DNA of 28,000 nucleotides from Asterionellopsis glacialis (taxonomy: Eukaryota > Bacillariophyta > Plagiogrammaphyceae > Rhaphoneidales > Asterionellopsidaceae): assembly GCA_014885115.2 (NCBI GenBank), contig WKLE02004176.1, forward strand, positions 1 to 28,000, given 5' to 3'. The notes beneath the pieces are model-generated. The model ran no database searches and was not told where the DNA came from. It saw nothing but the letters and a program-made list of their open reading frames with translations. A program made the translations under genes and the position numbers. Numbering within the stretch: position 1 is the first letter of the stretch; each line of letters starts with the position of its first letter. This document shows positions 3,485-28,000 of the stretch, one piece after another.

Positions 3485-5480
3485 ATGTTGTTGCTGCGAA
3501 ATCAAGCTCTCGCCTTGGCGGCTTTTGTCGCCTTCTTGTGTACTTCCGTATCCGCATTCTCGACTCCAGCAAGTTCTCTGTCACGTTCTATCACTGCGAA
3601 CAATGTTGCGTTCGCACCCTCATTCAATTCCAAAAGTCGGTCCACCTCTGTGTCGATGAGTGAGGCTGCTACAGCTGCCGGTGACGAAAAATTGTTCGAG
3701 TCATTTGGAAAGGGTATTAAAAGGGACTACAAAGCACGTCTTCCTCTTTATAAGTCTGACATTAAGGATGGGTTGAACAATCAGGTACGGTAAATTTATG
3801 TAATCGCTGGAACAAATACAACAAATCTGATGCATAATTGCTCACTAACTCTTTTTGCATAATCATGGGCATATAGTGCCTAGCTGCGATTCTTTTCTTG
3901 TTCTTTGCTTGTCTTGCACCAGCAGTAGGCTTTGGAGGCTTGTTTGGTGCAGCTACCGATGGAGGTAAGTTTTGGGGCAATTTCATACACAAACTCTTCT
4001 ATCCAGAATTAAACAACATGTCATTCACAAGAATCTTTTTGCATTTCATTTCTTCAAAGCAATTGGAACGATGGAGATGGTTAGGTAAGTGGTTGATGCC
4101 GCTACTATTAATTTTTAATGTTTTGATGGATCGAAAAAATGTATTAATATAATTTTTGTTTGTTTGTTTGGCAGTTCCACCGCACTTTGCGGCTTCATCT
4201 ATTCTATCTTTTCTGCTCAGCCACTCACCATTATTGGTTCCACTGGTCCAGTGTTGGCATTTGTTGCAGTTTTGGCTCAATTTGCAAAGAAGCTGTCACT
4301 CCCATTTCTCCCTCTTTATGCATGGACTGGCCTGTGGACGTCGGGAATTCTACTGTTGTCATCTGTTACGTCTGCATCCAACCTTGTCAAATATTTGACT
4401 CGCTTCACTGATGAAATTTTTTCTGTGCTCATCAGTTCAATCTTTGTCATTGAAGCGGTGTCCGATATTGGAAGGACTTTTGCTTCGCCTGCATCAACTT
4501 TCACGAAAGCTCTTTTGACCATGACACTAGCACTTGTCACCTTCTCCGTGGCAACAACCCTCAAGGGACTTCGAAAAACTGTCTATTTTACCAAGAGAAT
4601 TCGTGACAATCTCTCCAACTTTGCCCCTACAATTGGTGTGGTTACAGCCACTTTGATTGCTCGGTGGGCACGATTAACACAGGGTGTTGCCACAGCTGGT
4701 CTACCGTCTCTAAATCTCCCTCTCACCTTTGGTACTACGTCTGGAAGGCCTTGGCTTGTGCCATTGACCGATTTACCTGTTTGGGCCCGCTGGGGTGCAT
4801 TTGTACCTGCTCTTATGGCGACAGTCCTCCTCTTTTTAGACCAAAACATTACTGTTCGTGTTGTCAATAACCCTAGCTATAAGATGAAGAAGGGCCGTAG
4901 AGAAGGGAGCGTCCTCGATGGTATGCATGCCGATATGCTTGTGATTGGCATTTTAACTGGTTTTACCTCTATTGTTGGTCTACCCTGGCTCGTAGCTGCA
5001 ACTGTGCGAAGTATTTCTCATGTTCGTGCTTTGTCAAAATTTGATAAGGATGGAAAAATTGAAGGGACCATCGAACAGCGTGTGACTGGCATGTCTATCC
5101 ACACTTTAATCGGATGTTGTGTTCTTTTCGCCAAACCTCGTAAGTTGTTGACTCAGATTCCTCTTCCTGTATTAATGGGGTTGTTTATGTACCTTGGAAC
5201 ATCAGCTCTTCCTGGAAATGAAATGTGGGAACGCATCTTGGGTTTTTTTAAAGACAAGTCTATTTCACCCAAACAGAGGTGGGACAAGGTACCAAACAAG
5301 ACCGTGAACTTATTCACTGCAATTCAAGTTGCATGTCTCGGCGCAATGTTTTGGGTGAAAGAGAGCCCTGTTGGAGTTCTTTTCCCAATTGTGATTGCGA
5401 TGCTTGCCCCTCTTCGTTTTGGATTAACGAAAATGGGCGTTATCAGCGAGGAAGATATGGAGATTCTCGATGAAGAGTGA
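3485..5480 (+). CDS. SLC4-family (bicarbonate) transporter with plastid-type presequence
   Basis: Four exons: 3485-3784, 3877-3964, 4060-4084 (25 nt) and 4175-5480, joined by GT-AG introns, giving 572 residues. Splicing restores the family core: FACLAPAVGFGG in exon 2, the microexon reading IGTMEMV, then STALCG and QPLTIIGSTGPVLAF in exon 4, followed by RFTDEIFSVLIS. These are the anion-site and helix signatures of SLC4 transporters, closest in wording to the bicarbonate cotransporter branch. Residues 1-24 are a signal peptide ending SVSA|F25, matching the diatom ASAF import motif; Ser/Thr-rich residues 25-60 resemble a transit peptide. The long cytosolic N-domain of animal SLC4 proteins is absent. 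The likely role is moving HCO3- across a plastid envelope membrane in the carbon-concentrating mechanism. Substrate and membrane are inferred; borate or another anion remains possible. Confidence 0.9.
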
Positions 5481-5699: not shown

Positions 5700-8249
5700 T
5701 CATAAAGTATTCTGAGGAGCAGGAGGTAAGAAAATACCCAGGCTCTTCAGACGCTTCATAGCGTGGGCGTCTCTTTTGGTCCGTTCTTTTCGCTTTTCCC
5801 TCTTGATCCGTTTTGCCTTTCTGATGATTTTGCATCGCAATGACTCAATTGTTATTTCATCCTTTTTGGCTTCATCGACTTTAGCGAAGACGTCGCAAGG
5901 CAATAGCTTCCTCTTTTTTGTCTTCCTTGCGTCCGCAATTTGCACTTGGCATCTGACTGATGGCAGTGGTACATAGTCTAGTAAATTAATCTCTTGAGGT
6001 GGGATTTGTCTATATGGGTCGTCCTGAACCCATGCACGCAAAAGAGAATAGAAAGATGTGTCCGGTGGAAAATTATCAAAGTTTATCCTCCGATCTAGGA
6101 TATGGAAAATTGCTGACGCATTTTCTGGTATCCCATTTTCGATTTCCTCTGGTGTTATTTTTGGGGCGTTTGTTTTTGCAGACTGGGTTTTATGTGAGTA
6201 GTGATGGCCCAACGGGTTGTTGCCCTTGTCTGTTTGTGAAATACTCGTTGAACGAACGGTTTTTACCGAAGCATTCATGCCAGGGGCTGTCGATTGAATT
6301 TCAGGCGCATTTGATTGAGTTGGTGTGGTGAGAATTGGAGCCCTTGTTGAACTTCCTGAAATTGTCGGTTGCGTACTAGTAGCTTGTTCTTTACTCGAGG
6401 AAAATATGTGTGAAGGGAGTTTAGACCCAGCTGTATCTGGCAATGGCGTTGCGATCGGAACGAAATTATTACTGTCGCCGTTGTTTCCTGTGTAAGAAGC
6501 AACTCCTTTTGGTTGCTCAAAAAAAAATTGCGCGCAATCAGCAGGCCTTGCTACTGTTGTGGGATGATTTGACGAGAAGGAATTGTTAATCTCGTGCGAT
6601 CCTGCGTTGCCGGGTCCCATATTCTTGATACCCAATTTTTGTGCGACTTCGTCAGATACGCTTTTCTGCTTCACTAAATGAGCTTGACCAATATGGTTAA
6701 TCTTATCGGTGACCGATTTTGGCTGATTTTTTCCGACGTCTGTTGAACCTTTTTTTGCTGCCGGAGCACCGGTTATGCTGTCAGAAGGTTCGGCGCTGAT
6801 TTGCGACGTTGAAGCTTTAATAGATTTATATACACTCTTAAAGTATCTTGTGTTTGGTGCAGATTTGACTGTAGTCGATGTCCTCAACGATGCCGATTTC
6901 GATGTGGATGTGTCGATCACTGGTGTGGTGTTAGATTTATGCATGTCATTTTTTTCTCGTGTCATATCCACTGCATCATGAACCACGATAGATTTTCCTT
7001 GTGATGATGAAGGTCCAATTGTCATTTTTAGATTTGGGTCTTCAAACGTGCCAATGTCTTCTTTGAATCCATGATTTCTGGGTGCAACTGGAATACAATG
7101 TGAATTTTTCTGTGACTTGGAACCACCCAATGTGCCACTATTTGGCCCAGACTTCGGCTTTGAATTTGAAATAGTCTTTTTCGGTTTATTGGTAAACGCG
7201 GGGCTCTTTGTAGACTGAGCCTCGGTTGGTGTTTTTGATACGGGCCAAGTTTTAGCCCTACTTGTCTTCACCTCCTGCGCACTTCCCACAGAAGATGATC
7301 TAGATGCAATATTTCCGGACAAGAATTGCGTGGTTGGAGCTGAATATCTTGACGTAACAAGATTAGTTGAAGTTATCATGTTTCTGTTTTGTAATGTAGC
7401 ACCATCGGCCGATTTCACACCTTGGAGAACTGCTGCCATGTTCACTTTTAAAGGAATTGATGTGCCCGATCCCGTGATACTTGGTCCTGGAAACTGCGCC
7501 ACTGAAGGAGCGAATCCTTTGGCATTTCTATCTGCAACAACTCGTTTTGAAACTCTGGGTGACTTGGATAAATCAATGGATTTAACATCTCTTTGTGTCA
7601 TCGGGATATTTTGCAAACTGCTGGGAGGCTGGGAGTTCGACGTCGGGCTTTGTCGGGGAGATGGTACAGAAATGGCCGCTGGTGTCAGTGATGATATTTG
7701 TAGGTTTGGATCTACATTCAATGCTGCAGTCAACGAAACTCCTGGAAAAGTTGGATTGGCATATACAGCATGCGATATTGGGAGTGCATATGTGTTGCCT
7801 CTCGCGTCGCTAATGTTGTGTATGTGGACTGGTGCGGACGGGAAAATTGTAGGTGCAAAAGTGCTGCCTGCAATACCTTTTTTTTGTTCACTTTGAACAA
7901 AGTTGTTTGCAATTGCTACTGCTGGTCGGGCCTGCTCTGTCGGGTTTGAGAGCAATGTTCTATCAGAGTTTTGATGATGAGTTGTCTGTTGTGGTGAACT
8001 TAAAGGATTCGAAACCCCGATAATAGCAAAAGAAGGTTGAGGCAGCACTGCTATAGACAATGCCGCAGGCCAGTTTGTTATTTCCGGTTTCATCCCTCCT
8101 TGTCCTGTAGGAGGCACGAGACCGCCGTTCATAGCCGATCTCTGCTCTCCAGGTTGATTTAAAGACGAGGCTTCAAAGGCTGACATCTCTTCGCGATTTT
8201 TCTCGTCAATGTCCGACTCGTCAACTAATTTGCTTTGACCGAATGGCAT
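5700..8249 (-). CDS. LIN37-like protein (putative DREAM/MuvB complex subunit)
   Basis: A single-exon ORF of 849 residues from ATG 8249. Residues 1-700 are low-complexity, rich in Ser, Thr, Pro, Asn and Gln, and look disordered. The C-terminus is different. Residues about 717-745 read ILDRRINFDNFPP, then SLLRAWVQDDP, which aligns with the LIN37 core of animals (LFDR...DL..F...T.LY...RAW....P). A strongly basic helix follows at about 795-838. LIN37 is a non-enzymatic subunit of the MuvB core, which with E2F/DP and Rb proteins or B-Myb represses or activates cell-cycle genes. The protein is much longer than animal LIN37 (about 250 residues) owing to the N-terminal extension. The C-terminal match is clear by eye but short; no other domain was recognised. 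Confidence 0.7.
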   Translation of the reverse strand: MPFGQSKLVDESDIDEKNREEMSAFEASSLNQPGEQRSAMNGGLVPPTGQGGMKPEITNWPAALSIAVLPQPSFAIIGVSNPLSSPQQTTHHQNSDRTLLSNPTEQARPAVAIANNFVQSEQKKGIAGSTFAPTIFPSAPVHIHNISDARGNTYALPISHAVYANPTFPGVSLTAALNVDPNLQISSLTPAAISVPSPRQSPTSNSQPPSSLQNIPMTQRDVKSIDLSKSPRVSKRVVADRNAKGFAPSVAQFPGPSITGSGTSIPLKVNMAAVLQGVKSADGATLQNRNMITSTNLVTSRYSAPTTQFLSGNIASRSSSVGSAQEVKTSRAKTWPVSKTPTEAQSTKSPAFTNKPKKTISNSKPKSGPNSGTLGGSKSQKNSHCIPVAPRNHGFKEDIGTFEDPNLKMTIGPSSSQGKSIVVHDAVDMTREKNDMHKSNTTPVIDTSTSKSASLRTSTTVKSAPNTRYFKSVYKSIKASTSQISAEPSDSITGAPAAKKGSTDVGKNQPKSVTDKINHIGQAHLVKQKSVSDEVAQKLGIKNMGPGNAGSHEINNSFSSNHPTTVARPADCAQFFFEQPKGVASYTGNNGDSNNFVPIATPLPDTAGSKLPSHIFSSSKEQATSTQPTISGSSTRAPILTTPTQSNAPEIQSTAPGMNASVKTVRSTSISQTDKGNNPLGHHYSHKTQSAKTNAPKITPEEIENGIPENASAIFHILDRRINFDNFPPDTSFYSLLRAWVQDDPYRQIPPQEINLLDYVPLPSVRCQVQIADARKTKKRKLLPCDVFAKVDEAKKDEITIESLRCKIIRKAKRIKREKRKERTKRDAHAMKRLKSLGIFLPPAPQNTL

Positions 8250-8417
8250 GATTCGACAATGTCTCTCTCCATTTCTAGATGGGTTTTGGGACCCAAACTA
8301 CTATTCACTGAAGAATGCGGTCGTGCTTTGGCTTGGAACCTCTTCCTTACGGATATGTTCAGATTTCTCAAATCACTACAAAAGCCTTCTCGCAACAGCT
8401 TCTGTATGCGTTTCGTG

Positions 8418-11197: not shown

Positions 11198-13066
11198 CTA
11201 AAAAGCCGGGGGGGGTGGGGGGGGTGCAGCGGGAGCTTCGCCCATGGGTACTAGCCCAGAGCCTGCGGTACCTCCCATGACAAACCCTGAGTCTGAATCA
11301 TCATCATCGCCGTAGTTATGATTTTGCATGCTAGCATCCATAGCACCAAATGTCTTTCCCATTCGCAAAGAGCTGTCCGTTGGAATGACGGGGGCTTCCA
11401 TCATGGGTTGCACCGCTAACCCTGATAATCCATTTAATTCGTCGACACCATTTTGCATTTGTAGCGTATGTGGTGGGAGTTCAGGTGGGGGCATAGGTGG
11501 GGGCATAGAAGGAGGCATAGGGGTTGGCTGTGAGCGTTGATGCACGGCTTCGTCAATTTTCTTTTTCATGGCTTCGTCTTCGGCCGTTGGCGTAGCAACA
11601 GTCACAACAGACGGGTTTGATGGGGCAGATTTCCCTTCTAAAATGCGTTTCATAGCATCATCCGCTGATGACACCAAATTCGCCATACCAAAAGACGCAT
11701 TCTCTGCAGGTCCTAGTTCGTCCAAAGCTGAAAACCTATCCAAAGTTGAGCTCATGACAGGTTTCTTTTTCATTACTGGTGCCAGAACACTTTCGGTCGG
11801 ATGAAAAACTGGTTCGTATTCGTTCTTTGGTGTGGGTACTTCCTCATCAGCCTTCACAGAAGAAGACGGGGCAACAGTCATCAGACTTAGCAAATCTGTG
11901 GCTCCTTCAACTATGTCCTTGGTTGACACGGATGTTGAATTTCCAAGCAAGTCGGTAGTAGGATTGGTAGAAAAGGGGTCAGTTTGGGTGCTACTGCTGC
12001 TAAACGGGTCGTGATGTGTAGGTTGGCTCCCTGTACCAAGCAAATCCGTAGCCGCTTGGCTGTTACCGAAAGGATCATGTTGAGCAGGCTGGCTAACGAT
12101 TCCAGTACTGATCAATTCAGATGAAACTGTAACGCTTGCAGTTTCTGCGCCTCCAGAAAAATCCAAGAGATCAACTTCAGCGGCAGGCTGTGCAGGTTCG
12201 CTGAAGTCGAGCAAATCCACCGCTGGAGCAGGGGTTGGAGCCGGAGCCGGAGCCGGAGAAGAAATTGCTTCTGATGTAAAATCAAATTCGTCGGGTTCAC
12301 GTTTATGTATCGGTCCATCGTCCGTGTATCGTTTCTTTTCGCGTTTGGAAGCTGCCATCATTTCGTCGATTCCGTGAGCTGCTCCGACTACCTTTTTCCC
12401 GTCTTTGGTCGAACACCCACCACCAAATCCACCATCTGCTTTTGCGAGGTTACTCTTTGTCCGGATTCCCAACTGAGTTTCCATGCGTTTTTGCAATAAG
12501 TAATGCCGCACTTCATCGCTCACAAATGCCACCTTTTTCTGATCTCCAACGGGCACTAAGGAATCTGGATCGGCTTTTGCGTTTCGTACTACTCGAATTT
12601 GATCCCTGCTTTGGAGCAACTCTTGTAAATCTTCGGCTGCCTGTCGCACTGGCATTCCCTTGTCGACACCGCCACCTTTGACACGCTGCCACCAACCTTC
12701 CGGATTTCCGGCTTGTTGCGCCAAAAAGACTGTGTTGAAGTCACGGAGTTCATTCACATATCGACCCAACCCCCACGCGCTATTAACGGATTTTTCTGAG
12801 CCGTAAATTAAAATATGTTTGGTAATCACCAGGGCCTTTTGAATCGTTAATGGAGTGTACTTAAGTTTATTGGCCATAACCTCTTCCAACATCTCGAAGA
12901 TTTCATCGCAAACCTCGTCGCCGTACGACAACGACGCCATCTGGTTAAGTTCGAAGCTGCTCAATACTTGGACGTCATCGTTCAGGAGAAACTCTGCAAG
13001 CTTTCTTTCTGTATCACTACCTTCAAGATGAGCTTTGCCCCTTACCAACCAACCCGCCGGCTTCAT
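11198..13066 (-). CDS. ENTH/VHS-superfamily clathrin adaptor (epsin-like)
   Basis: A single-exon ORF of 622 residues from ATG 13066. Residues about 17-160 form an ENTH-like alpha-helical domain, with LTIQKALVITKHILIYGSE at about 73-91 and GVDKGMPVRQAAEDLQELL at 133-151. ENTH domains bind phosphoinositides and bend membranes. The rest is a flexible tail with typical adaptor motifs: DLLDF at 284-288 and 299-303 (clathrin-box-like), and DPF at 331-333, 353-355 and 363-365 (AP-2 appendage binding). There is a Pro/Met stretch at about 511-532 and a C-terminal run of prolines encoded by two G8 tracts. It probably recruits clathrin and adaptors at the plasma membrane or endosomes. I see no ubiquitin-interacting motif. 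Distinction between epsin, epsinR and tepsin types is not possible by eye. Confidence 0.8.
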   Translation of the reverse strand: MKPAGWLVRGKAHLEGSDTERKLAEFLLNDDVQVLSSFELNQMASLSYGDEVCDEIFEMLEEVMANKLKYTPLTIQKALVITKHILIYGSEKSVNSAWGLGRYVNELRDFNTVFLAQQAGNPEGWWQRVKGGGVDKGMPVRQAAEDLQELLQSRDQIRVVRNAKADPDSLVPVGDQKKVAFVSDEVRHYLLQKRMETQLGIRTKSNLAKADGGFGGGCSTKDGKKVVGAAHGIDEMMAASKREKKRYTDDGPIHKREPDEFDFTSEAISSPAPAPAPTPAPAVDLLDFSEPAQPAAEVDLLDFSGGAETASVTVSSELISTGIVSQPAQHDPFGNSQAATDLLGTGSQPTHHDPFSSSSTQTDPFSTNPTTDLLGNSTSVSTKDIVEGATDLLSLMTVAPSSSVKADEEVPTPKNEYEPVFHPTESVLAPVMKKKPVMSSTLDRFSALDELGPAENASFGMANLVSSADDAMKRILEGKSAPSNPSVVTVATPTAEDEAMKKKIDEAVHQRSQPTPMPPSMPPPMPPPELPPHTLQMQNGVDELNGLSGLAVQPMMEAPVIPTDSSLRMGKTFGAMDASMQNHNYGDDDDSDSGFVMGGTAGSGLVPMGEAPAAPPPPPPAF

Positions 13067-13787
13067 GTTGGAACAGCAGTTGGAACCGTCGCTATTCTAA
13101 TGCACCGCAGGAGCAACGTCGGTGATCAATACACAAGGCTGAGTTTGCCTCTGTCGACAACTCCCAGAAATCTTACGACTTCTGGAAATCAGGGCATTTT
13201 CCTTTTGGACATAATATTATTCTGGTCCAGTATATATTTCACGTACGTAGGACAAGATGACTGGGGACCCGTAGACCTAAAAAACTACGGAACTAAGAGA
13301 CACTGACAAGAAAATTCAAAGAACACAGACTCACAGACAACTTTGTCTATTGGGATGACTGATGATGACAAAAGAATTTTTTGGATTATATTTGTTAGAG
13401 CTAAAGTTAATTTTACTTGCCTGCCTGTTCGGCGTACGTATTACACTCCCTAGCAATCAAAAAATAATACATTGGACAAGAGAAAGCTGTCTGATGGTCT
13501 ACAGTCCAGATGCTAGAAAATGTGGGTCTCCCAGATCTATCTTCGAAACTGAGTTCAGATTGAGGAGTGTTTCCACAATGTTATTGAATCCATCGCGATG
13601 ATTGTTGGCCGAGATTGACCACGGACCGGCAGAAAAGGTGTTTATTCCCATGGCTCGAAGACCCAGGCTCTTTTGATACTTCACCGAATATTTTTGATTT
13701 GGAAGACGTTGTTGTTTAAATTGAAAAGAGTTTCTCACATCATTTATACCGTGGTCCATTCTTCGCGAAAATTACAACCCAGAGACC
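13067..13787. promoter_or_regulatory. Divergent upstream region, ENTH adaptor and SNF2/AP2/FHA gene
   Basis: A 721-bp gap between two divergent starts, expected to hold both promoters. It includes scattered ACGTACG and TACGTA motifs around 13240-13250 and 13430-13440. It is less palindrome-dense than the other 5' flanks. No gene was recognised. Confidence 0.4.
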
Positions 13788-16700
13788 ATGGAACTCTCAG
13801 AGACAGCCGAGCAAAATGACATTTTTTCGTGGAACTGGAGGACACGTGATTCTGTTCAGGAGTTATTTGCTCAACGAGACATTCCAATCGCGAGCGTGGA
13901 TACAGCTAAATCGACTATTGCAGCTTCGCTATCTTCTCAATTTGATGTAGACACTTCTTTTGCACGGATTCGACGAGATAAGGCAATTGTGGTCCGTACC
14001 ACGTTTGGTGCAGCCGCCACTGCCGTCGTTCATGCGCTAGCAAAAGCCGAGGATGATCATGGGGACGATGCGGATGGAGATTCACCAGTTTCTCAGGATG
14101 AACTACCTCCTTTGTCTTCGCGATGGAAGGAACTAGAAGAAATGCGATCGACTAGTTTAAAACGAGCTCATGAAAACAAAGAAGTGAAAAAGAATAAGGT
14201 TGCTGTAGGAGGTGCAACTAGTACTGACGGTGCCTCCACCTATGTGGCGATCAAAAGTAAAACAAAAATTACGATCAGAACAGCGGATTCTGCCACCAAA
14301 ACTAAAAAGGCAGCTGACAATAAGGCTACCCCCGATAAAAGCACAAAATTTTCTGGAGGGATAACAACTGCCACATCAGGACCATCCGCAGCCGTAGATT
14401 CAAGATCTGTCGCCTCGAGGGCGGTACTGTGCACCGCCGCATCTATTGCATTCGATAGGCTAACGCCTATATTGGATGATAGAGAAATCGATGTATTGGA
14501 TGTGCCTCAAAATACTGCTCGGAGCGAGGGCGGTGCGGACAATTCAATCCCCGAGAATACGCCAACTTCCTCGGGTTCATCTCAAAACACGTCTACTCCT
14601 GTGGTCAACATGGGAGCAGTTTCATTGCAGGCGAAAACAATTGGCGAAAGAGCGTCCTACCTCGCCAAGAACGCTGCTCGGAGGTCTCGACAACGTTACG
14701 ATTATCGGCGCGACAACGCTCAGTATGAAAAGGAAAAGAATGCATTTAACTTTTGTTTATCAAATCCATTTGCCTGGAAACCAGAGAATTGCACAAACGA
14801 TAGCGATGATGAAGAAGGCGAATTAATAGCGGAGCCCGTCATACCTACAAACAAACCTTGTGACCCTGTCAAAAGATTGACGACTGTGTGGAAGGAAAAA
14901 TGTTTGCCACGACTTTCGTCCATTTTGGGAGAAGGGTCTGGAAACGCAGTTTACTGCGATATGGACTGGTCCACTCGTCATGGGCGTGTAGCCAATCTTT
15001 TGCAACAGCTTGCAGATGAAGACGATAATTACGGATTGCATCTAATTGTAACTACACACCCCCAGGTCGAGTGCTTTGCACAAGAATTTGATGCCTCTGA
15101 TCCCCATATGAATTATGCCTCCTCGTCTTCGAAATCGCAGCGACTGCGAATCTTGACATATGCCGGTACGACATCTGAGCGTCGCAAACTTCGCGGACAA
15201 TTTGAGGATGCTACAGGCTTAGCAGATGCAAGCTTTCATGTTCTGGTTATGTCCTATTCATCCTTTTTGAAGGATTATCTTCATATATGCCAGGTTCCCT
15301 TTCAAGCTGTCATACTCGATGAGGGATTGTCTTGGATGGGTGTTGCGAGTGCTGATCCCAATGGTTCAATAGGTAATATGTGGGATAATGGTGTTTGGAG
15401 TTCAAGCGACCAGAACATTGGTCTTGCAGGAACTTCACACCACCAGGAGTGGGATTTTTCGTGGAAGAAAATACCAGAAGAGCACTTAAAGAGTGCATGC
15501 ATTGGTTTAACTGCTCGGCATCGGATCGTCACAGCATCTTCAATGTCGGTTCGTCTTCGTGACACGCTACATGCAGCACCTGCTGCGAGTCTCGTAAGTT
15601 TCTTTCTTCCTCAATTTACTGATGTCGTAAGAGAGGAATGGGACCGAAGCCGTATCGCAAGTGATCCTGCAAGCATGGATCACATGCGTAAACTTTTGAC
15701 AAGATCTGTTGTAGTACATGACCCGTCAAGCAACGAAAGTTTGTACGAACTTGCAATTAGTGCAATGACTGGCAAGTTGTCAACATCAATACAAACTGCA
15801 ACTGCTCCCCATGTTCCCGATGAAATCGCAGACGAAACCTTTGTGATGGATGGCAAGATTTCGCAATCTCGTCGTTTCTCCCTTGCTTGGCTTGGTAAGG
15901 CTTCACACTCCTGGCTCCGTTACGAATTAGGTAGCGCATCATTACTACCATTATTACATGCTATGAAACAATCTGCTACTCACGGGCACGTGTGTGAGGA
16001 AGTGGTCACAGCGTCTTCCACCACTTCGTCTGGTGCAGGCGGTACCGTGAGTGGAACCCAAGCTTACCGACTGGCCTTGAGATGTGGTCGAAACTTTGGT
16101 TCTGAACAGGGATTGAGGCAGCACATGGCGGCTCTCCATGCTCCTCCAGGCACATGGCTTTGTCGAACCTGTGGTGGAGACTGCGGTACGTCTCAAGCAA
16201 GAACGCATCATGAAAGGTCTTGCGGTCAACCAGCAGCAGGTGCTCCTGTAAGTGGTGCTGCTCCGGGGGCGACTGCGAGTGGTGGCGCTTCTACAGTTGG
16301 ACAAGGAGTCGGGGCAGGTGGAAAGTCAGTTGGCCCAACAGGCACAGTCGGCAAGAAGGGTAAAACAGCTGGAAAGACGTCTGCAGCTGGTGCTGTTGGG
16401 CCTAAAGATAAAGATAAGGACGGATCTTTTCGTGTTCCTGGATATCGAGGTGTATGGTTGAATACAGCAGGTAAACATTTTGTCAAGATCAATGGAGTGC
16501 GTCTTACCAGTAAAGGAATTGTAGCAGACGAAAAGGGTGACGATGTCTTGTTATTTGATGCAGTTGATGACGCTGCGCGAAAGCACGATGAATTCGTTTC
16601 GAAGTCAAGCGACGCGAAAGGAGGTGAGCTGAACTTTCGTCCAGATGGTAGTCGTATTGTATACGAAGATAGCACAGCGGCGGCAGCAGCAGGGAGGGGA

Positions 16701-18032
16701 CTCGAGATGCTTGGTGGCGGTGCTAGTAGTGTTGTTCCTGCGCTGTCAGTGATTAATATCAAGGATCTTCCTTCACATGTACGACCTTTACTTCGAGATC
16801 CAAGGCAAACCAGTAGAACTGGAGGTAACTCAAAACGGCATGTATATGCCTACCGCGGGGTTTGCAGGCAAGCTCGTAAAGGTCATGATCGATGGCAAAG
16901 TCAGATATCATTTGGAGGGACTAATCATTACCTCGGCACGTTTGATTCTGAGTGGGATGCTGCTGCAATTTACGCTTGGGCACATCTCATTCTCTACGGT
17001 GAAGAAGCTACCAAAAAAGCTCAAAAAGAAGGAGAAGAAGCTGCTGAAGCTTATGAGCAAGAAAAAAGAGATATTGCTGCTGGGAAAATTATAGTTCCTC
17101 CACCTAAAGCACCAAAAAAAAAGAAAGAAAAAAAAGCAAAGGAGCCAAAAAAAGATGAAAAAGGATCTGCAGCCAAATCGAAATCTACAAAAAAGGAAGG
17201 TGACGATAACAAAACCCCAAAGAAACGTGCAAGTAAGGACCTTCCTTCTGCAGCAAAGAAGGCCAAGGTCGTTTCGTCTGCTAAGAATGATAATGCAAGT
17301 TTGGCTCCATATCTTTCGCGAGGTGTTGTGGCAGCTCCCGTCCTTGCGCCTAGGAAAACTTATAAAGCCATGACTGAAGATGAACTGATAAAGTCCGTCT
17401 CTACACGCATCCATGCAATACGCGGTAATGGCTACTTGGTGTCCGATGATGTTTTGCCTCCACCTGTGGTACAGGAGTTGCGCCCTTGTGCTCCAATACC
17501 AACATCTTCAGATACGTTCCCGACGGGATGTGCGATGTTGATGGGTCTCGCTGCAGACTGGTTTGGTTGGGATGCAGAAGCTTTCATTGGATCCTGTAAC
17601 TGGGATTCTATTGAAGAATCTGATTCCGCATCTGCTTTGCTCGATGAGGAATTCGGTGATGGTGGCATTAATGAAAGTTTCCGAACGATAATGCAAGGAA
17701 CTATGTGTGTCATCGGAAGAGCAGGGAAAAGCTTAGAGAGAGCTGCAAATGCTCTCGGCATGGGTCCAGTGCCTCTTGGAGGAACAATTGGTGATCTAGA
17801 TTGTAATATTGGAGGAACTCCTGACTCGTGCAGTGAATCTGCGGCAGTTATACAATATTCTCCAGCAGGTGGGAGTGATTTCCAGTTCTCGGCTCTATCT
17901 GGCGCTGAAGATCTTGTGACGCTGAATGGCCAGAGGATCACATCAAGTATGGGAAGCTTCCCATTGTTCAATGAAGATGTATGTTCAGTTGGAGCTCGAG
18001 TCTTCGTATTTTTGCTTCCCACAGACAATTGA
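13788..18032 (+). CDS. Multidomain nuclear protein: degenerate SNF2-like lobe, zinc-finger-like region, two AP2 domains, FHA domain
   Basis: A single-exon ORF of 1414 residues from ATG 13788. Residues about 385-620 follow the order of a SNF2 ATPase first lobe: LHLIVTTHPQVECFAQEFD, ILTYAGTTSERRKLRG, FHVLVMSYSSFLKDY, AVILDEGLSWMG (motif II position) and LTARHRIVTASSMSV (where RxLLTGTP is expected). Walker A is lost (YCDMDWSTRHGR) and no second lobe follows, so ATP-driven remodelling is unlikely. Residues 766-812 hold His/Cys pairs resembling C2H2/C2HC fingers. AP2-like domains lie at about 885-936 (YRGVWLNTAGKHFVKI) and 1020-1070 (AYRGVCRQARKGHDRWQSQI to LGTFDSEWDAAAIYAWA). A Lys-rich nuclear-type linker occupies 1105-1165. 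Residues about 1303-1411 resemble the FHA domain of MCRS1 (CVIGRAGKS, GDLDCNIGG, VTLNGQRI, ARVFVFLLP). It is probably a DNA-bound chromatin scaffold; this role is inferred. Confidence 0.8.
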   Translation: MELSETAEQNDIFSWNWRTRDSVQELFAQRDIPIASVDTAKSTIAASLSSQFDVDTSFARIRRDKAIVVRTTFGAAATAVVHALAKAEDDHGDDADGDSPVSQDELPPLSSRWKELEEMRSTSLKRAHENKEVKKNKVAVGGATSTDGASTYVAIKSKTKITIRTADSATKTKKAADNKATPDKSTKFSGGITTATSGPSAAVDSRSVASRAVLCTAASIAFDRLTPILDDREIDVLDVPQNTARSEGGADNSIPENTPTSSGSSQNTSTPVVNMGAVSLQAKTIGERASYLAKNAARRSRQRYDYRRDNAQYEKEKNAFNFCLSNPFAWKPENCTNDSDDEEGELIAEPVIPTNKPCDPVKRLTTVWKEKCLPRLSSILGEGSGNAVYCDMDWSTRHGRVANLLQQLADEDDNYGLHLIVTTHPQVECFAQEFDASDPHMNYASSSSKSQRLRILTYAGTTSERRKLRGQFEDATGLADASFHVLVMSYSSFLKDYLHICQVPFQAVILDEGLSWMGVASADPNGSIGNMWDNGVWSSSDQNIGLAGTSHHQEWDFSWKKIPEEHLKSACIGLTARHRIVTASSMSVRLRDTLHAAPAASLVSFFLPQFTDVVREEWDRSRIASDPASMDHMRKLLTRSVVVHDPSSNESLYELAISAMTGKLSTSIQTATAPHVPDEIADETFVMDGKISQSRRFSLAWLGKASHSWLRYELGSASLLPLLHAMKQSATHGHVCEEVVTASSTTSSGAGGTVSGTQAYRLALRCGRNFGSEQGLRQHMAALHAPPGTWLCRTCGGDCGTSQARTHHERSCGQPAAGAPVSGAAPGATASGGASTVGQGVGAGGKSVGPTGTVGKKGKTAGKTSAAGAVGPKDKDKDGSFRVPGYRGVWLNTAGKHFVKINGVRLTSKGIVADEKGDDVLLFDAVDDAARKHDEFVSKSSDAKGGELNFRPDGSRIVYEDSTAAAAAGRGLEMLGGGASSVVPALSVINIKDLPSHVRPLLRDPRQTSRTGGNSKRHVYAYRGVCRQARKGHDRWQSQISFGGTNHYLGTFDSEWDAAAIYAWAHLILYGEEATKKAQKEGEEAAEAYEQEKRDIAAGKIIVPPPKAPKKKKEKKAKEPKKDEKGSAAKSKSTKKEGDDNKTPKKRASKDLPSAAKKAKVVSSAKNDNASLAPYLSRGVVAAPVLAPRKTYKAMTEDELIKSVSTRIHAIRGNGYLVSDDVLPPPVVQELRPCAPIPTSSDTFPTGCAMLMGLAADWFGWDAEAFIGSCNWDSIEESDSASALLDEEFGDGGINESFRTIMQGTMCVIGRAGKSLERAANALGMGPVPLGGTIGDLDCNIGGTPDSCSESAAVIQYSPAGGSDFQFSALSGAEDLVTLNGQRITSSMGSFPLFNEDVCSVGARVFVFLLPTDN

Positions 18033-18101: not shown

Positions 18102-20599
18102 TTAGTTGTCGTCATCGTCGTCTTCGCTGTCTTCATCATCTTCTAATGTCGTACTTTTGCTTCCGTATGTATTGTTCCAGTCTATATATACTTTAAGATC
18201 CGCTTGAGCTACACTGGGATTGGTCCCTCGTAAAGCTTTACGAAAGTGTTTGAATGTGATTGGTGGGACATCCTTTGGGTCAATTTCTAGAGCAAGCGAT
18301 CCTAGTTGCCGGATGGGTCCCATCGCGGCATCGGTGCACAAGGAACTAAGGTCTGCACCACTAAACCCATTAGTTTTAGTCGAGATCTTATGAAAGTCCT
18401 GATCTGTCAGCGAGTGACTATTTTTTTTTACCAAAGTACGTAAAAGTATTTCGCGATCTTTTTGTTCAGGTAATGGAATGTACAAGCGTTTGACGAATCG
18501 CCTTCTGGCGGCATCGTCGAGCTCGTGCGGGCGATTAGTTGCGCCAATCACAAGGACTTGGCCTTGACCGCTTGTGCCTGTCCCGTCCAATTGCACTAGA
18601 AATTCAGTTTTAATCCTTCGACTTGCTAAAAAGATGACAAAGAGAAAAGGAGAAAACTTAGACAAGAGAAAAATTCGGAAAATTAGCCCTAATACCTTCT
18701 TCTACACGTTGGAATGACTCACCTTCATTTTCATCTGCCTTCCGTTGTGTAAGGAGAGAGTCTATTTCATCTATAAAAACTACCGATGGCTGACGGTAGG
18801 CAGCAACAGCAAATAGAGTACGAACAAGCTTTTCACCTTCACCGATCCACTTGCTTGTTAGGGAAGAACTAGATATAGAAAAGAATGTAGCACCACTTTG
18901 GTGAGCAATCGCTTTACCAATCAACGTTTTGCCCGTTCCAGGTGGACCAAAAAGTAGGAGTCCATTCGGAACTTTGCGCAATCCAGTAAAGATATCGGGT
19001 CGTTTCATTGGCATGATTACAAGCTCGTTGACTATTGCTTTTGCATCCTCCAACCCCGCAATATCCTTGAAGGTAACCGGCTGTCCAGATTCGATGATTT
19101 CATTCATAATTTTGTCCACTAGTTCTTTGTCCAGCCCACGCAATTCCTCTGGCAGCTCGTCATCATCACTACTAATCGAGCAAGAAGAGCTTGGTCTAGA
19201 AGAGGTCCCTCCACCACCACCCTTGCCTGACTGACCACTTCGTTTCGTAGAACCTCGTTCTTGTTTAACGCCTCCGCTTTCTTTGCGTTTTGCCTAAATT
19301 TAGATTAAATTCAAAAAATAAGTGAGTATAGAGGCATGGGAAACGGTTCACGGCAGTATGATACGATTAATGTGGTTGTTCATGATGAATGCAATGCTTG
19401 CCATTTACCTCTTCGGGGTTGCGTTTTGGTGGTTGAAACTTTCGTTTGAGGGAATCCCGAATGTTGGGTCCCTGGATTGGCTGTCGAGAGGGGTTATTTG
19501 ACTGCTCTTGTTGAGGATCGTAAGGGTTATTGGGTTGTCGTTGATACGGATCACGAGGACCATATGAATCATTGTATTGATTGGGGTGCCGACATGGGCC
19601 TCCTTCGATTGCCCTTTGTTGTTCGTAACCATCGTTATCGTTGCCTGTCTTTCCAGAGGGATCTGAGTGAGCATAGTCACGTGCGGTTTGGAATGGGTTT
19701 TGCGTATTTTGAGCATTGTCCCAGGAGGAATTCATAGACGTATCCTGTCCTCCCCATGCAGAATTCGATACTGAATGGTTTGCAGGTTTGTGAATATTTC
19801 TCCTCATTCCGTCCACTTTTTGAGTTTGATCTTCCCATGTGGTTGGTACAGTGTTGCCATTGATTCCATGCTGACTCACTGGGCCGGTATCATGCTGCTC
19901 TTTTATCCACATACTATTTTGCTTTGTCTTAGCATAAGGATTTCTGGGTGGAGCCGACGCAATCCGTTCGCTATGGGCTTTATTGTTGCTATGATGAGGT
20001 TGTTGCAGGTCTGGTTGTCCACTTCCTGGTACAGCCGAGGGCAGTTTCGCCGGATGTATTGGAGGATGAGTCGACTTGGAGTTATATGGTTGATTTTTCT
20101 GACTTGCGTCCTCATCATCACTTTCCTCGTCATCGTCGTCGTCATCATCATCATCTGTATCACCCGAGTAACTCTGTGCACATTCTGGGTAATCATCGAA
20201 AAAGGCATCAGCTGCATCCTGACCAGAATCATTATCATTATGGATATTATCGAATTTTACATCTTTCCCAATTTCTGGTCGTCTCATTATTTCATTGAGC
20301 ATTCTAGTGTGACTGCCGGAGGCACAATCTTTGTCCAACTCCCACATTGTTTGTTCCCACAATAATGACAGGCCATCTACATCATGATTATTGTCTTTGT
20401 CATCTGCAATTGCACTTTGAATAGAAGCAAGTTTACCCACTCGAGCAATCATAAGTTTTGATAAGATATGTCTTTGCTGATGTTCGTCTGGTAGACCCGT
20501 TTCCGAGCTCAAACTTCGTTCCAAGTCACTCTTCGCATTTTTGTACTGCACGAGCCATTCTTCATAAAGGGTTGGATAGTTTGGTCTTTTCTTCGACAT
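18102..20599 (-). CDS. FIGNL1: Fidgetin-like 1 AAA ATPase
   Basis: Three exons on the minus strand: 20599-19409, 19293-18723 and 18625-18102. The introns are 115 and 97 nt, with GT-AG ends and phases that join cleanly, giving 761 residues. The AAA core has Walker A GPPGTGKT at 513-520, Walker [10 protein letters not shown] at 568-576, sensor-1 GATN ending at 618 and arginine-finger region DDAARRRF at 624-631. FIGNL1-type wording is seen in [31 protein letters not shown] and the C-terminal [12 protein letters not shown]...WNNTYG. FKRKFQPP-like residues before the core match the family's pre-AAA linker. The N-terminal 390 residues are polar with a run of Asp. FIGNL1 is a hexameric ATPase that dismantles RAD51/DMC1 filaments and limits crossovers. 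ATG 20599 is the first ATG in frame. Its 3' end faces the fusion gene 69 bp away. Confidence 0.93.
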
Positions 20600-24624: not shown

Positions 24625-27600
24625 TGATGACAAAAGTTAACAAATAAATAGCAGTAATTGTGTTTTGGGGTAATGTACCAGGGTATCAAGTAATTACCTT
24701 GCACTACTAGTTAACATCCTGAAATATTACCTAGATCCACATACTGTGTCTCAATGCAGTACAGTACATAATAGCTAGGGTTAAGAATAAATTATAACGC
24801 AAGTTTTTTGAGAATATCAGCACTATCCCTACTGTTTGAAATGTGAATTGTTATCCCCTGGGGAAGAACTAAAAAAGGCTTAGTCAGTTGGTGGAGAGCC
24901 ATTTCTTGGGGGGATGAGAAAATGAGCGGTTGCTTGTTGGTCAAAGATGTCCTACGAGTATTTTTGTACCAGCCTCACTGGTCCTTGCCCACCTGACAAT
25001 TTTGCCCTTTTGATATCAAGACCCAAAATTTTAAAAATATTAAGGTTAAATTTAAGGTTATACTTGTACTTGCTTTTTAACATTAAGGATATCCTTATTC
25101 TTTCTTCCTCCATCTTCTTTCTCCCTCCACATGTCAAGCTTTGACCACACAATAACCAATAGCAATAACAAGAACCTCTAATGATATTGAAAATGGTCAC
25201 ATCAGCACTATCAATCATCACTTGCAAATGGACAACTTAGACTTCTCTTGAAGTATGGATACAAATATGGGAAGGCCATGTCAGCTTTGACAAACAAGGC
25301 ATTATCATTGATAGCTGCAATTATGGAAGAACATGTACAGATGGATCAGTACATCAAAGACTGCATTTCTTTGATATAAAACAATTGTTATTTTAAAATA
25401 GAAAGGGGTTCAACTGTTGAAACATGTTCATTTTGTGACCTTCTCCACCTTTTTCTATTACCTCAAACATTATTACATACTGTACATTAAGGGTTAACCC
25501 CAACCCTTAATTTTTCATTATCCCCCCACTTAAAAATGTACGTGATTTGTACAAGTACAAAAAAATTTCAGGTTTGGCCTTCCAGCCCTTCAGACCTCAA
25601 AATAACCCTTATCCTAATAACTTCCCCAAAAAATATTTTTGGTTTTCCAGAGAGGTGCCATTTGAAAGCCCATCTAACTACCTGTTGATTAAGCCTATAA
25701 AAAGGTGAATTGGACATAATGGGGAAAAGGTAGAATTTTTCCACAACTTATGGGGCATTACTTCAGGGTGTGCCTCCAGAGAGTGTAGTAGTATTGGGGG
25801 ATAGTTTTGCTTACAGAATGAGAAGAAGATCATATGAATGGGTGGATGTTTAATATTTTCCATGTTGGATGAATCATCTACTAGATTAAGAAGGTATTGT
25901 GAAATTACAACACAAATGATTTTTTAATCTTGGTTTTCAGGATAATATGTATATTAGAAATTCAAAAACAGTCTACTGTAGTGAAATATCTTTTTCTGTT
26001 TTTCATGCAATAATCCTTCCAAAAAAAATTCTGTTAGAACCACGAAGGTGCATGATCAAAGAATCAAAACAGGCAAAAAAAAGCTAGATTCCAAGCAAAG
26101 TTTCAAATAAGATCTAAACTTTTGCAAAACTGACAACTTTTTAAAAGCCCAGTTTTACAAAAACTGATCAATAGTGACAATTAATATGGTGCATAGGAGG
26201 AGAAGTGGTAGATATGTAGTAATCAATATGAAGGAAGAAGAACAGAACACTGAATTACTATTCCATACTATGGTATGATACTACCTAGCAACACTACTAT
26301 AGTATGCTGGTGATGACCTCATTTGGTATCAATATGTTTGACATATTCTAGCTAGAATCAAATCTTACTTGATCTCTCTTAGTAGGCAGATTTACAGTAC
26401 TGCAACATCACTACAGTCCTTTAAGCCAATTTGCTCCAATATTAGGTGTGTCTAGGCAGAAAAATCAGTCATTCCTTTCTCAAGCATATAATATCACATT
26501 TCTTCTATGTACCTACTGTTTTTTTCTTTCTTGAACAAGTCAACTTTTTTTTGTGGTATCTTTTGTGGTTTGATTTGATATGCCCATTATATCATGACAC
26601 ATTGATATTTTTACAAAATTTAAAGAGCAAGTCAGTAGGAAGAGAGAAACTATTACATTTTCTTCAAGTGTCATCTTACAGGAACACTAACAAGCAGAAA
26701 AGAATTCCTTGGTACTGAGGCCCCTGGCTTTTTTACCACAAAAAAAATTATAGTACTATTACTACTTGTTAGCAACCACAAATTTCAAGTTTGTTGAGTT
26801 TTAGTTGGTGGTATTATTAAAGATCTTCAGAGCTGGGTGGAAAGTATTTTGTATTAGTATAATAATTACCTAACAAGAATTCATTAAAAGAACTACAAAT
26901 GAGAGTTTTGTTTGTCATCCTCTTTTTGTGTACTAACAGTGCCTCTCATACTCTACTACTCAAATCCAATCATACAGTATGGTTGGTAAAAGTGAATACT
27001 TATAAGATGGTGACAATAGGACCATCAACATCTCTTATTTTAGTCTTTAAAGAGATAAAAAAAACCATTACAGAATCCATGGTGGTATAACATCAAAACA
27101 ACATTTCTACTGTCTCCTGTTGGGGTATGCTTCAAATATTTGTTAATCACTGTACTAACCAAATATATTTTATTTTGTTAGTAATGCCCTACAAGAGAAT
27201 TTTCTGATTATAGTATATTCTTACACTTGTATAACATACATGAATTGTAAATAAAACTAATATGACAGTCACTTCTTCTACCTTGGGGAAGGGGCTTCAT
27301 TTTTGTATATGAAATACTACAATATATATGAATGTGGGTTGAAGAATGAAGAGAATCATGATAACTGCACTTTGACCAAAAACCAAAAAGAGGATACATC
27401 AAAAAACTATGAACTACATATTTATTTTCCACCTAATATTAATTAGAGAAAAATGCAAAATAGATATTATGATGTAACTGTTATGAAATCCAAATGCATA
27501 TTTTAAAGTTTTGTAATACACTTCACAAAGATATACCTTTTGAGACTGAACATGGTAGACCACATTTTTTCTCTTGCATACTTAGCCTTTTAAAAGAATG

Positions 27601-28000
27601 ACCTCCAAAATACCAAATTGCATATGATGGTATATTTACTATAAAATAAAATAGCATATACAATCAACAACATGTAAATAAGAATACTGGTACAGTCCAC
27701 ACCTGGTAATAAGCAACAGCTGTTGCTAAAGGTTAATTGGAATAAGCAATTTCCTGCTTGGAATTAGAAGTGCTACTTATATGCTGACTTCATTAAACAT
27801 AAATTAAGGGGGTAGAACAATTATTCATCGAGTTTTTTCACTCCTTGGCGAAAACACCCCCTTCGGAAGAGATTTTCCCTGCTTTCATCTAGAATTTTTT
27901 TTTATTTTTTCCATTCTTTGCCCCCAACACCCTGGGAATGCTCCGTTTCATCCCAAGATTTGGTCAGAAGCTAGTATCAAACCTTTCATATCGATACATA
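24625..28000. other. Long AT-rich region without a supported gene
   Basis: About 3.4 kb with clearly lower GC than the gene-dense left part and no open frame over about 90 codons with recognisable content. A plus-strand open stretch at 25191-25379 reads like protein (LANGQLRLLLKYGYKYG, MEEHVQMDQYIKDC) but has no start context. Composition rises again after about 27820, where C-rich and T-rich runs appear, perhaps the flank of a gene beyond the window. No terminal repeats of a mobile element were found by eye. Confidence 0.4.

Follow-up and report, generated by a model that had tools for sequence, protein, structure and literature searches.

The 28,000-nucleotide stretch of Asterionellopsis glacialis DNA analyzed here (contig WKLE02004176.1, positions 1 to 28,000; in the following, the window) carries on its forward strand a gene for a protein of 1414 residues. 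As judged from sequence and predicted structure, the intact protein combines the first lobe of an SNF2-type ATPase, lacking a normal ATP site and a partner lobe, with zinc fingers, two AP2 domains and a domain of FHA fold. This large protein, apparently uncharacterized so far, is conserved across the sampled diatoms, from Thalassiosira-type to pennate species, as far as alignments can tell, and is a candidate for a lineage-specific regulator of genes or chromatin. We favor, at a probability of roughly 0.55, a function as a nuclear DNA-binding adaptor of diatoms, in which the second AP2 domain would aim, the lobe would dock and the FHA domain would recruit.

A continuous gene conserved among diatoms

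The frame at 13788-18032 (+) comprises 1414 codons without a stop, the stop-to-stop frame starting at 13725, and a search of the assembly (40.3 Mb, 1503 contigs) with the protein gave a single match. A protein search identified 139 relatives at E<=0.01, of which 120 were listed and 19 fell outside the listing; statements on the family that are based on this search refer to the matches listed. The closest of these is a 1416-amino acid (aa) open reading frame (ORF) from A. glacialis transcriptome data with 87% identity, and at least seven transcriptome ORFs of 1310-1764 aa among the listed matches are marked as complete (P0010, P0015, P0027, P0030, P0033, P0048, and P0090). The uninterrupted ORF proposed in the initial annotation is, thus, borne out by frame translation and by full-length transcriptome ORFs, which span the whole protein with no sign of a split into two genes; P0211, described below, points the other way. 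The domain order was identical across 39 aligned sequences (the window protein and 38 of the 120 listed relatives). Many metagenome gene models of the relatives are partial. Named relatives include Cylindrotheca, Seminavis, Nitzschia, Epithemia, Grammatophora, Pseudo-nitzschia pungens, Attheya, Thalassiosira, Skeletonema, and Stephanodiscus, and the listed relatives are labeled only as ‘hypothetical protein’, ‘unnamed protein product’, ‘expressed unknown protein’, ‘AP2/ERF domain-containing protein’ or by transcript or scaffold labels.

A second search was carried out with the core of the divergent full-length relative P0090 (residues 642-1445) against candidates of ~970-3087 aa, of which the 7992 sharing most words were scored. 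It gave 119 matches at E<=1, all of them listed, the weakest at E 4.8e-103; within this length range and among the scored candidates, the gap between the family and chance level is, by these scores, empty. Where the organism was readable, 17 of 18 matches were from diatoms. A sequence labeled as originating from the dinoflagellate Alexandrium tamarense (P0252) shared 54% identity with P0090 across 93% of the query and 46% with Skeletonema; its similarity to the centric diatom copies may be due to contamination or real transfer. A viral origin was rejected, as none of eight pattern matches in viral contigs turned out to be a relative by tblastn.

An SNF2-type first lobe that has lost its ATP site

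Searches of Pfam and the PDB with single sequences lacked the power to settle domain identities. A RecA-like fold was present in the region of residues 360-645, both in the predicted structure and by structural comparison, including the stretch 385-620, which had been annotated as an SNF2-like first ATPase lobe. A profile of the lobe matched INO80 best (51.7 bits vs. 29.7 for p400, 28.2 for DDM1 and 27.8 for SRCAP), and the structural Z scores were tied among the SNF2 subfamilies. The region is, therefore, by profile and model truly an SNF2-type RecA-like lobe 1, leaning to INO80 by profile. No match to DBINO (PF13892) was obtained in the window protein up to E 10.

In an alignment to INO80, the GLGKT region corresponded to D-x-x-W-x-x-R-H-G-R. 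Residues W394, R397, R400, D511, and G573 were kept in all rows of a 64-row lobe alignment (the window protein and 63 of the 120 listed relatives) and D391 in 63 of them, the remaining row, P0042, having a gap at this position. D391, W394, R397, R400, and D511 were also all kept in a separate 17-row alignment which includes the most distant relatives. The position of the Walker lysine is, hence, occupied by R397 throughout (64/64 and 17/17 rows). D511 is followed by D in 49 rows, by E in 11 and by another residue in 4, compared to DE(A/G)(H/Q) in motif II. Among 77 sequences, some of them partial (the window protein and 76 relatives from several alignments), neither [ST]GTPxQ nor motif VI of the second lobe occurred even once. 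Strings of the types G....GK[ST] and G.GK[ST] were all located outside the lobe, one of them near residue ~840 of the window protein, and short GK[ST] strings within the lobe (6/64 and 2/17 rows) were never found at the position of the Walker lysine. The previously noted loss of Walker A and of the GTP motif, thus, extends to the family as far as it was covered here.

The absence of a second lobe, also noted previously, is in line with the missing motif VI and with the lack of a Helicase_C match in the Pfam search. A stretch at residues ~718-742, which by eye resembled the start of lobe 2, was not supported as such by hhalign probabilities of 0.3% (with a two-sequence target) and 0.1%. No lobe-2 remnant was found at residues 640-830 by hhalign against a small SNF2 profile, which is a weak test because lobe 2 is covered by few sequences of the target. 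Given the family-wide absence of the ATP-site motifs, the sequences rule out a normal SNF2 motor for the family and indicate that the substitute for the P-loop has become fixed rather than being in decay. The combination of family-wide catalytic loss with invariant residues argues that selection has kept the fold together with a specific new patch.

Zinc fingers, AP2 domains, and the FHA domain

AP2 domains and C2H2 fingers are DNA-binding modules, and FHA domains mediate binding to proteins. The zinc-finger-like cysteines pointed out earlier belong to a C2H2-like finger (C766/H779/H784, possibly with C736) and a C2HC-like finger (C792, C795, C799, H808, and C812), and zf-C2H2_4 was matched in 9/9 members examined. 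Homology also upholds the annotation of two AP2 domains. The first (AP2-1) matched ERF096 at E 5.9e-4 and PF00847 in 5/11 members (best E 0.0034), and is predicted to adopt a beta-beta-beta-alpha arrangement, most blocks having a predicted local distance difference test (pLDDT) value >90. This Pfam set consisted of the window protein and 10 of 12 pieces, and two sets of nine of the window protein and 8 of 12 pieces each. The second domain (AP2-2) matched WRI1 in both of its AP2 domains (E 2.6e-12) as well as TEM1 (E 3.8e-5) and forms, together with the zinc fingers, the best conserved part of the protein in the 39-sequence alignment. The window protein’s own AP2 pieces stayed below the Pfam cut-off and gave no match to PF00847. 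This model also found nothing in the assembly at E<=0.1, a result that says nothing about AP2 copies elsewhere because the model misses this gene as well. Counts of AP2 factors in diatoms that rely on Pfam may, therefore, be too low.

The C-terminal domain adopts an FHA beta-sandwich fold by structural comparison, the top rows being GarA, EmbR, MDC1, and KIF1A. PF00498 was matched in 3/15 C-terminal pieces (the window protein and 14 of 20 pieces, drawn from 38 that were long enough), and none of the seven stretches that the Pfam FHA model marked in the assembly falls in this gene. At positions which we take to be those of the phosphothreonine-binding motif, S1349 and N1380 were present in 31/39 and 37/39 sequences, respectively. 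The initial annotation had likened this domain to MCRS1. A specific kinship was not supported: a profile of the domain against the PDB gave three chance-like rows and no FHA chain, and MCRS_N (PF13325) was detected neither in the window protein up to E 10 nor, up to E 1, in any of the 15 C-terminal pieces. In the assembly no MCRS_N gene appeared above the cut-off, a weak match (L042) being unlike MCRS1. MCRS1 was also not among the listed structural, PDB-profile or protein-search rows, in searches which did not include a direct comparison with MCRS1. For this reason, the proposed INO80-MCRS1 pairing is not supported either.

Putative function and alternative explanations

As a DNA-binding adaptor, the protein would read a DNA motif through AP2-2, aided by the zinc fingers and AP2-1. 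The lobe, in which the invariant W..R..R patch replaces the P-loop, would offer nucleosomal DNA, a remodeller or another chromatin partner a docking site independent of ATP, and the FHA domain would recruit a further protein, so that the parts might jointly direct chromatin machinery to selected promoters. The partner, the DNA motif and the localization in the nucleus are putative, and the scaffold role is one that we infer. The lobe, the motif loss and the AP2 homology agree with the earlier proposal of a DNA-targeted, ATP-dead protein that derives from a remodeller and has an undescribed architecture; the MCRS1 component of this proposal is not supported. If true, a remodeller motor would have been turned into an ATP-free docking module within a sequence-specific DNA-binding protein, providing one concrete gene for testing diatom-specific control of transcription or chromatin.

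Several observations, however, weigh against a function as adaptor. The lobe fold by itself does not demonstrate a role in chromatin, and the evidence on the AP2 domains is homology, which makes their DNA binding putative. When the lobe profile was run against the assembly, in which no INO80 was recognized for comparison, the top score went to an SWI/SNF-type ORF (31.7 bits) and not to one of INO80 type. The residues for phosphothreonine contact are poorly kept: position 1311 is R in 16/39 sequences, and where a histidine is usual, 37/39 have A. Furthermore, many predicted relatives comprise only part of the protein. A search with the FHA part among candidates of ~125-397 aa gave 126 matches at E<=0.01, the 120 listed being labeled as ‘hypothetical protein’ or by transcript number (weakest E 5.1e-53 among these); the 220-aa P0211, one relative, is a transcriptome ORF marked as complete which holds the FHA part alone; and the gene models of several relatives stop short of the zinc fingers or shortly downstream of them (P0267, P0269, P0271, and P0275). 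We take these part-only relatives to be possibly fragments or intron-split gene models.

The protein might also be, in essence, an AP2/zinc-finger transcription factor whose SNF2 lobe is only a structural remnant left from an ancestral fusion, without chromatin contact of its own. This would agree with the high conservation of AP2-2 and the zinc fingers and with the undetected lobe-2 remnant, with the caveat on that test given above. The predicted relatives P0087 and P0263 lack AP2-1 or have broken fingers, if the models are right, indicating that the architecture is not rigid. However, the retention of W394, R397, R400, D511, and G573 in every lobe row argues for a kept function of the lobe, and we regard a mere relic as possible but unlikely.

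Alternatively, the lobe may be complemented in trans, either by pairing with an active remodeller (SWR1 or SWI/SNF, for example) or by a second polypeptide that supplies lobe 2, making the protein a regulator or dominant competitor of the motor. The SNF2 homology, with INO80 nearest by profile, and the presence of SWR1-, SWI/SNF- and ISWI-type ATPases in the same assembly are compatible with such a role. However, as Walker A is absent, there is no ATP site to complement, which renders this explanation rather improbable. With respect to the ATPases, the Pfam SNF2 model marked 36 stretches in the assembly, and a Chaetomium Ino80 stretch gave 18 matches, including the window’s own lobe at E 2.7e-4. 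Three of the top loci were assigned to other types: C731 (L017, L019, L023) is a multi-exon SWR1-type locus (SWR1 3.1e-41 vs. Ino80 9.3e-30, and 7.2e-22 vs. 1.6e-14 in the PDB), C774 is of SWI/SNF type (2.1e-85 vs. INO80 1.4e-54, PDB) and C959 of ISWI/SNF2h type (8.7e-80 vs. INO80 2.7e-55, PDB). DBINO gave three weak matches, all on contigs other than that of the window, the best locus being ISWI-type. An INO80 ATPase proper was, thus, not recognized in the assembly by these searches, which ran exon by exon in an assembly of unknown completeness where intron-split or missing sequence is possible. As the degenerate lobe was the only INO80-type lobe recognized beside the three other types, one may speculate that diatoms lost the actual INO80 ATPase and retained only the first lobe of it, with AP2 and FHA domains, as a non-catalytic, DNA-addressed ‘pseudo-INO80’ that takes on the targeting role of INO80 without its motor; we consider this a lead only, and a quite doubtful one.

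Finally, that two adjacent genes were read as one ORF, as could be suspected from a domain order uniting parts usually found in separate proteins, from P0211 and from the many partial metagenome models, is highly improbable in view of the 1416-aa A. glacialis transcriptome ORF, and the uninterrupted frame, the full-length transcriptome ORFs of several diatoms and the constant order in the 39 sequences likewise speak against it.

Comparison with known proteins

In contrast to the INO80 ATPase, the diatom protein lacks Walker A and the GTP motif, second lobe and DBINO were not found, and the lobe is joined to zinc fingers, AP2 and FHA domains. Two AP2 domains per protein are also present in the plant AP2/ERF factor WRI1; unlike in WRI1, TEM1, and ERF096, however, the diatom domains are below the Pfam cut-off and lie within a 1414-aa multidomain protein. 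The FHA fold is shared with GarA, MDC1, and KIF1A, but the diatom domain has a helical insert and an incomplete set of what we presume to be the canonical phosphothreonine residues. DNMT5 is present in diatoms. According to one report, DNMT5 of green algae is an SNF2 helicase (DEXDc/HELICc) joined to a DNA methyltransferase (PMC3145265), hence also a fusion of SNF2 parts to another chromatin domain, but with both helicase lobes. The joining of chromatin proteins to AP2 domains has a stramenopile precedent in oomycete histone deacetylases, which carry PHD and two AP2 domains (PMC5112689); there, the enzyme is a deacetylase and not an SNF2 lobe. As 2 ERF and 0 AP2 factors were reported for P. 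tricornutum (PMC4827209), a conserved diatom AP2 protein is notable. No description of the protein or its architecture was found in the literature searched, subscription papers being mostly outside its scope.

Other features and neighboring genes

The positions of all features are given in Table 1. The N-terminal helices presumably occupy the place where remodellers carry the HSA/post-HSA helices, and some rows of the structural comparison align from model residue ~10-40 onward.

Table 1. Features of the gene and its product in window coordinates (NLS, nuclear localization signal).
Feature	Residues	Position	Strand	Basis
Complete ORF of 1414 aa and stop codon, readable without an intron		13788..18032	+	frame translation, 1416-aa transcriptome ORF
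N-terminal helices	199-225; 45-residue helix 275-319	14382..14744	+	predicted secondary structure, pLDDT
SNF2-type RecA-like lobe 1, INO80 nearest by profile, catalytically degenerate	~360-645	14865..15722	+	profile, predicted structure, structural comparison
Degenerate Walker A, remodeller GLGKT to D..W..RHGR	386-401	14943..14990	+	alignment to INO80; column counts
Motif II remnant VILDEG	508-513	15309..15326	+	column counts, 64 rows
Motif III site, LTGTP to T-A-S-S type	580-585	15525..15542	+	alignment; motif counts
Zinc-finger pair, C2H2-like and C2HC-like	760-815	16065..16232	+	Pfam zf-C2H2_4; column counts
AP2-like domain 1, divergent	~880-950	16425..16637	+	ERF096 match; PF00847; predicted structure
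AP2 domain 2, nearly invariant in 39 sequences	1018-1076	16839..17015	+	WRI1, TEM1 matches; column counts
Lysine-rich, mostly disordered linker, NLS-like	1103-1160	17094..17267	+	sequence; mostly pLDDT <50
FHA domain, helical insert after first strand	~1243-1412	17514..18023	+	predicted structure, structural comparison

The neighboring genes are ordinary. An ENTH-domain (epsin-like) protein is encoded just upstream and divergently at 11198-13096 (-), and a VPS4-like AAA ATPase in two frames at 18102-19293 (-), convergent with the gene, the 3' ends being ~70 bases apart. Further upstream, a bicarbonate transporter domain was identified at 4119-5480 (+) with E 2.9e-110. An 865-aa open frame at 5700-8297 (-) contains a LIN37-like stretch below the cut-off (E 6.3e-5) and is possibly a diatom MuvB/DREAM-type subunit. 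The G+C content of positions 25001-28000 is 0.31-0.34, compared to 0.37-0.51 elsewhere in the window.

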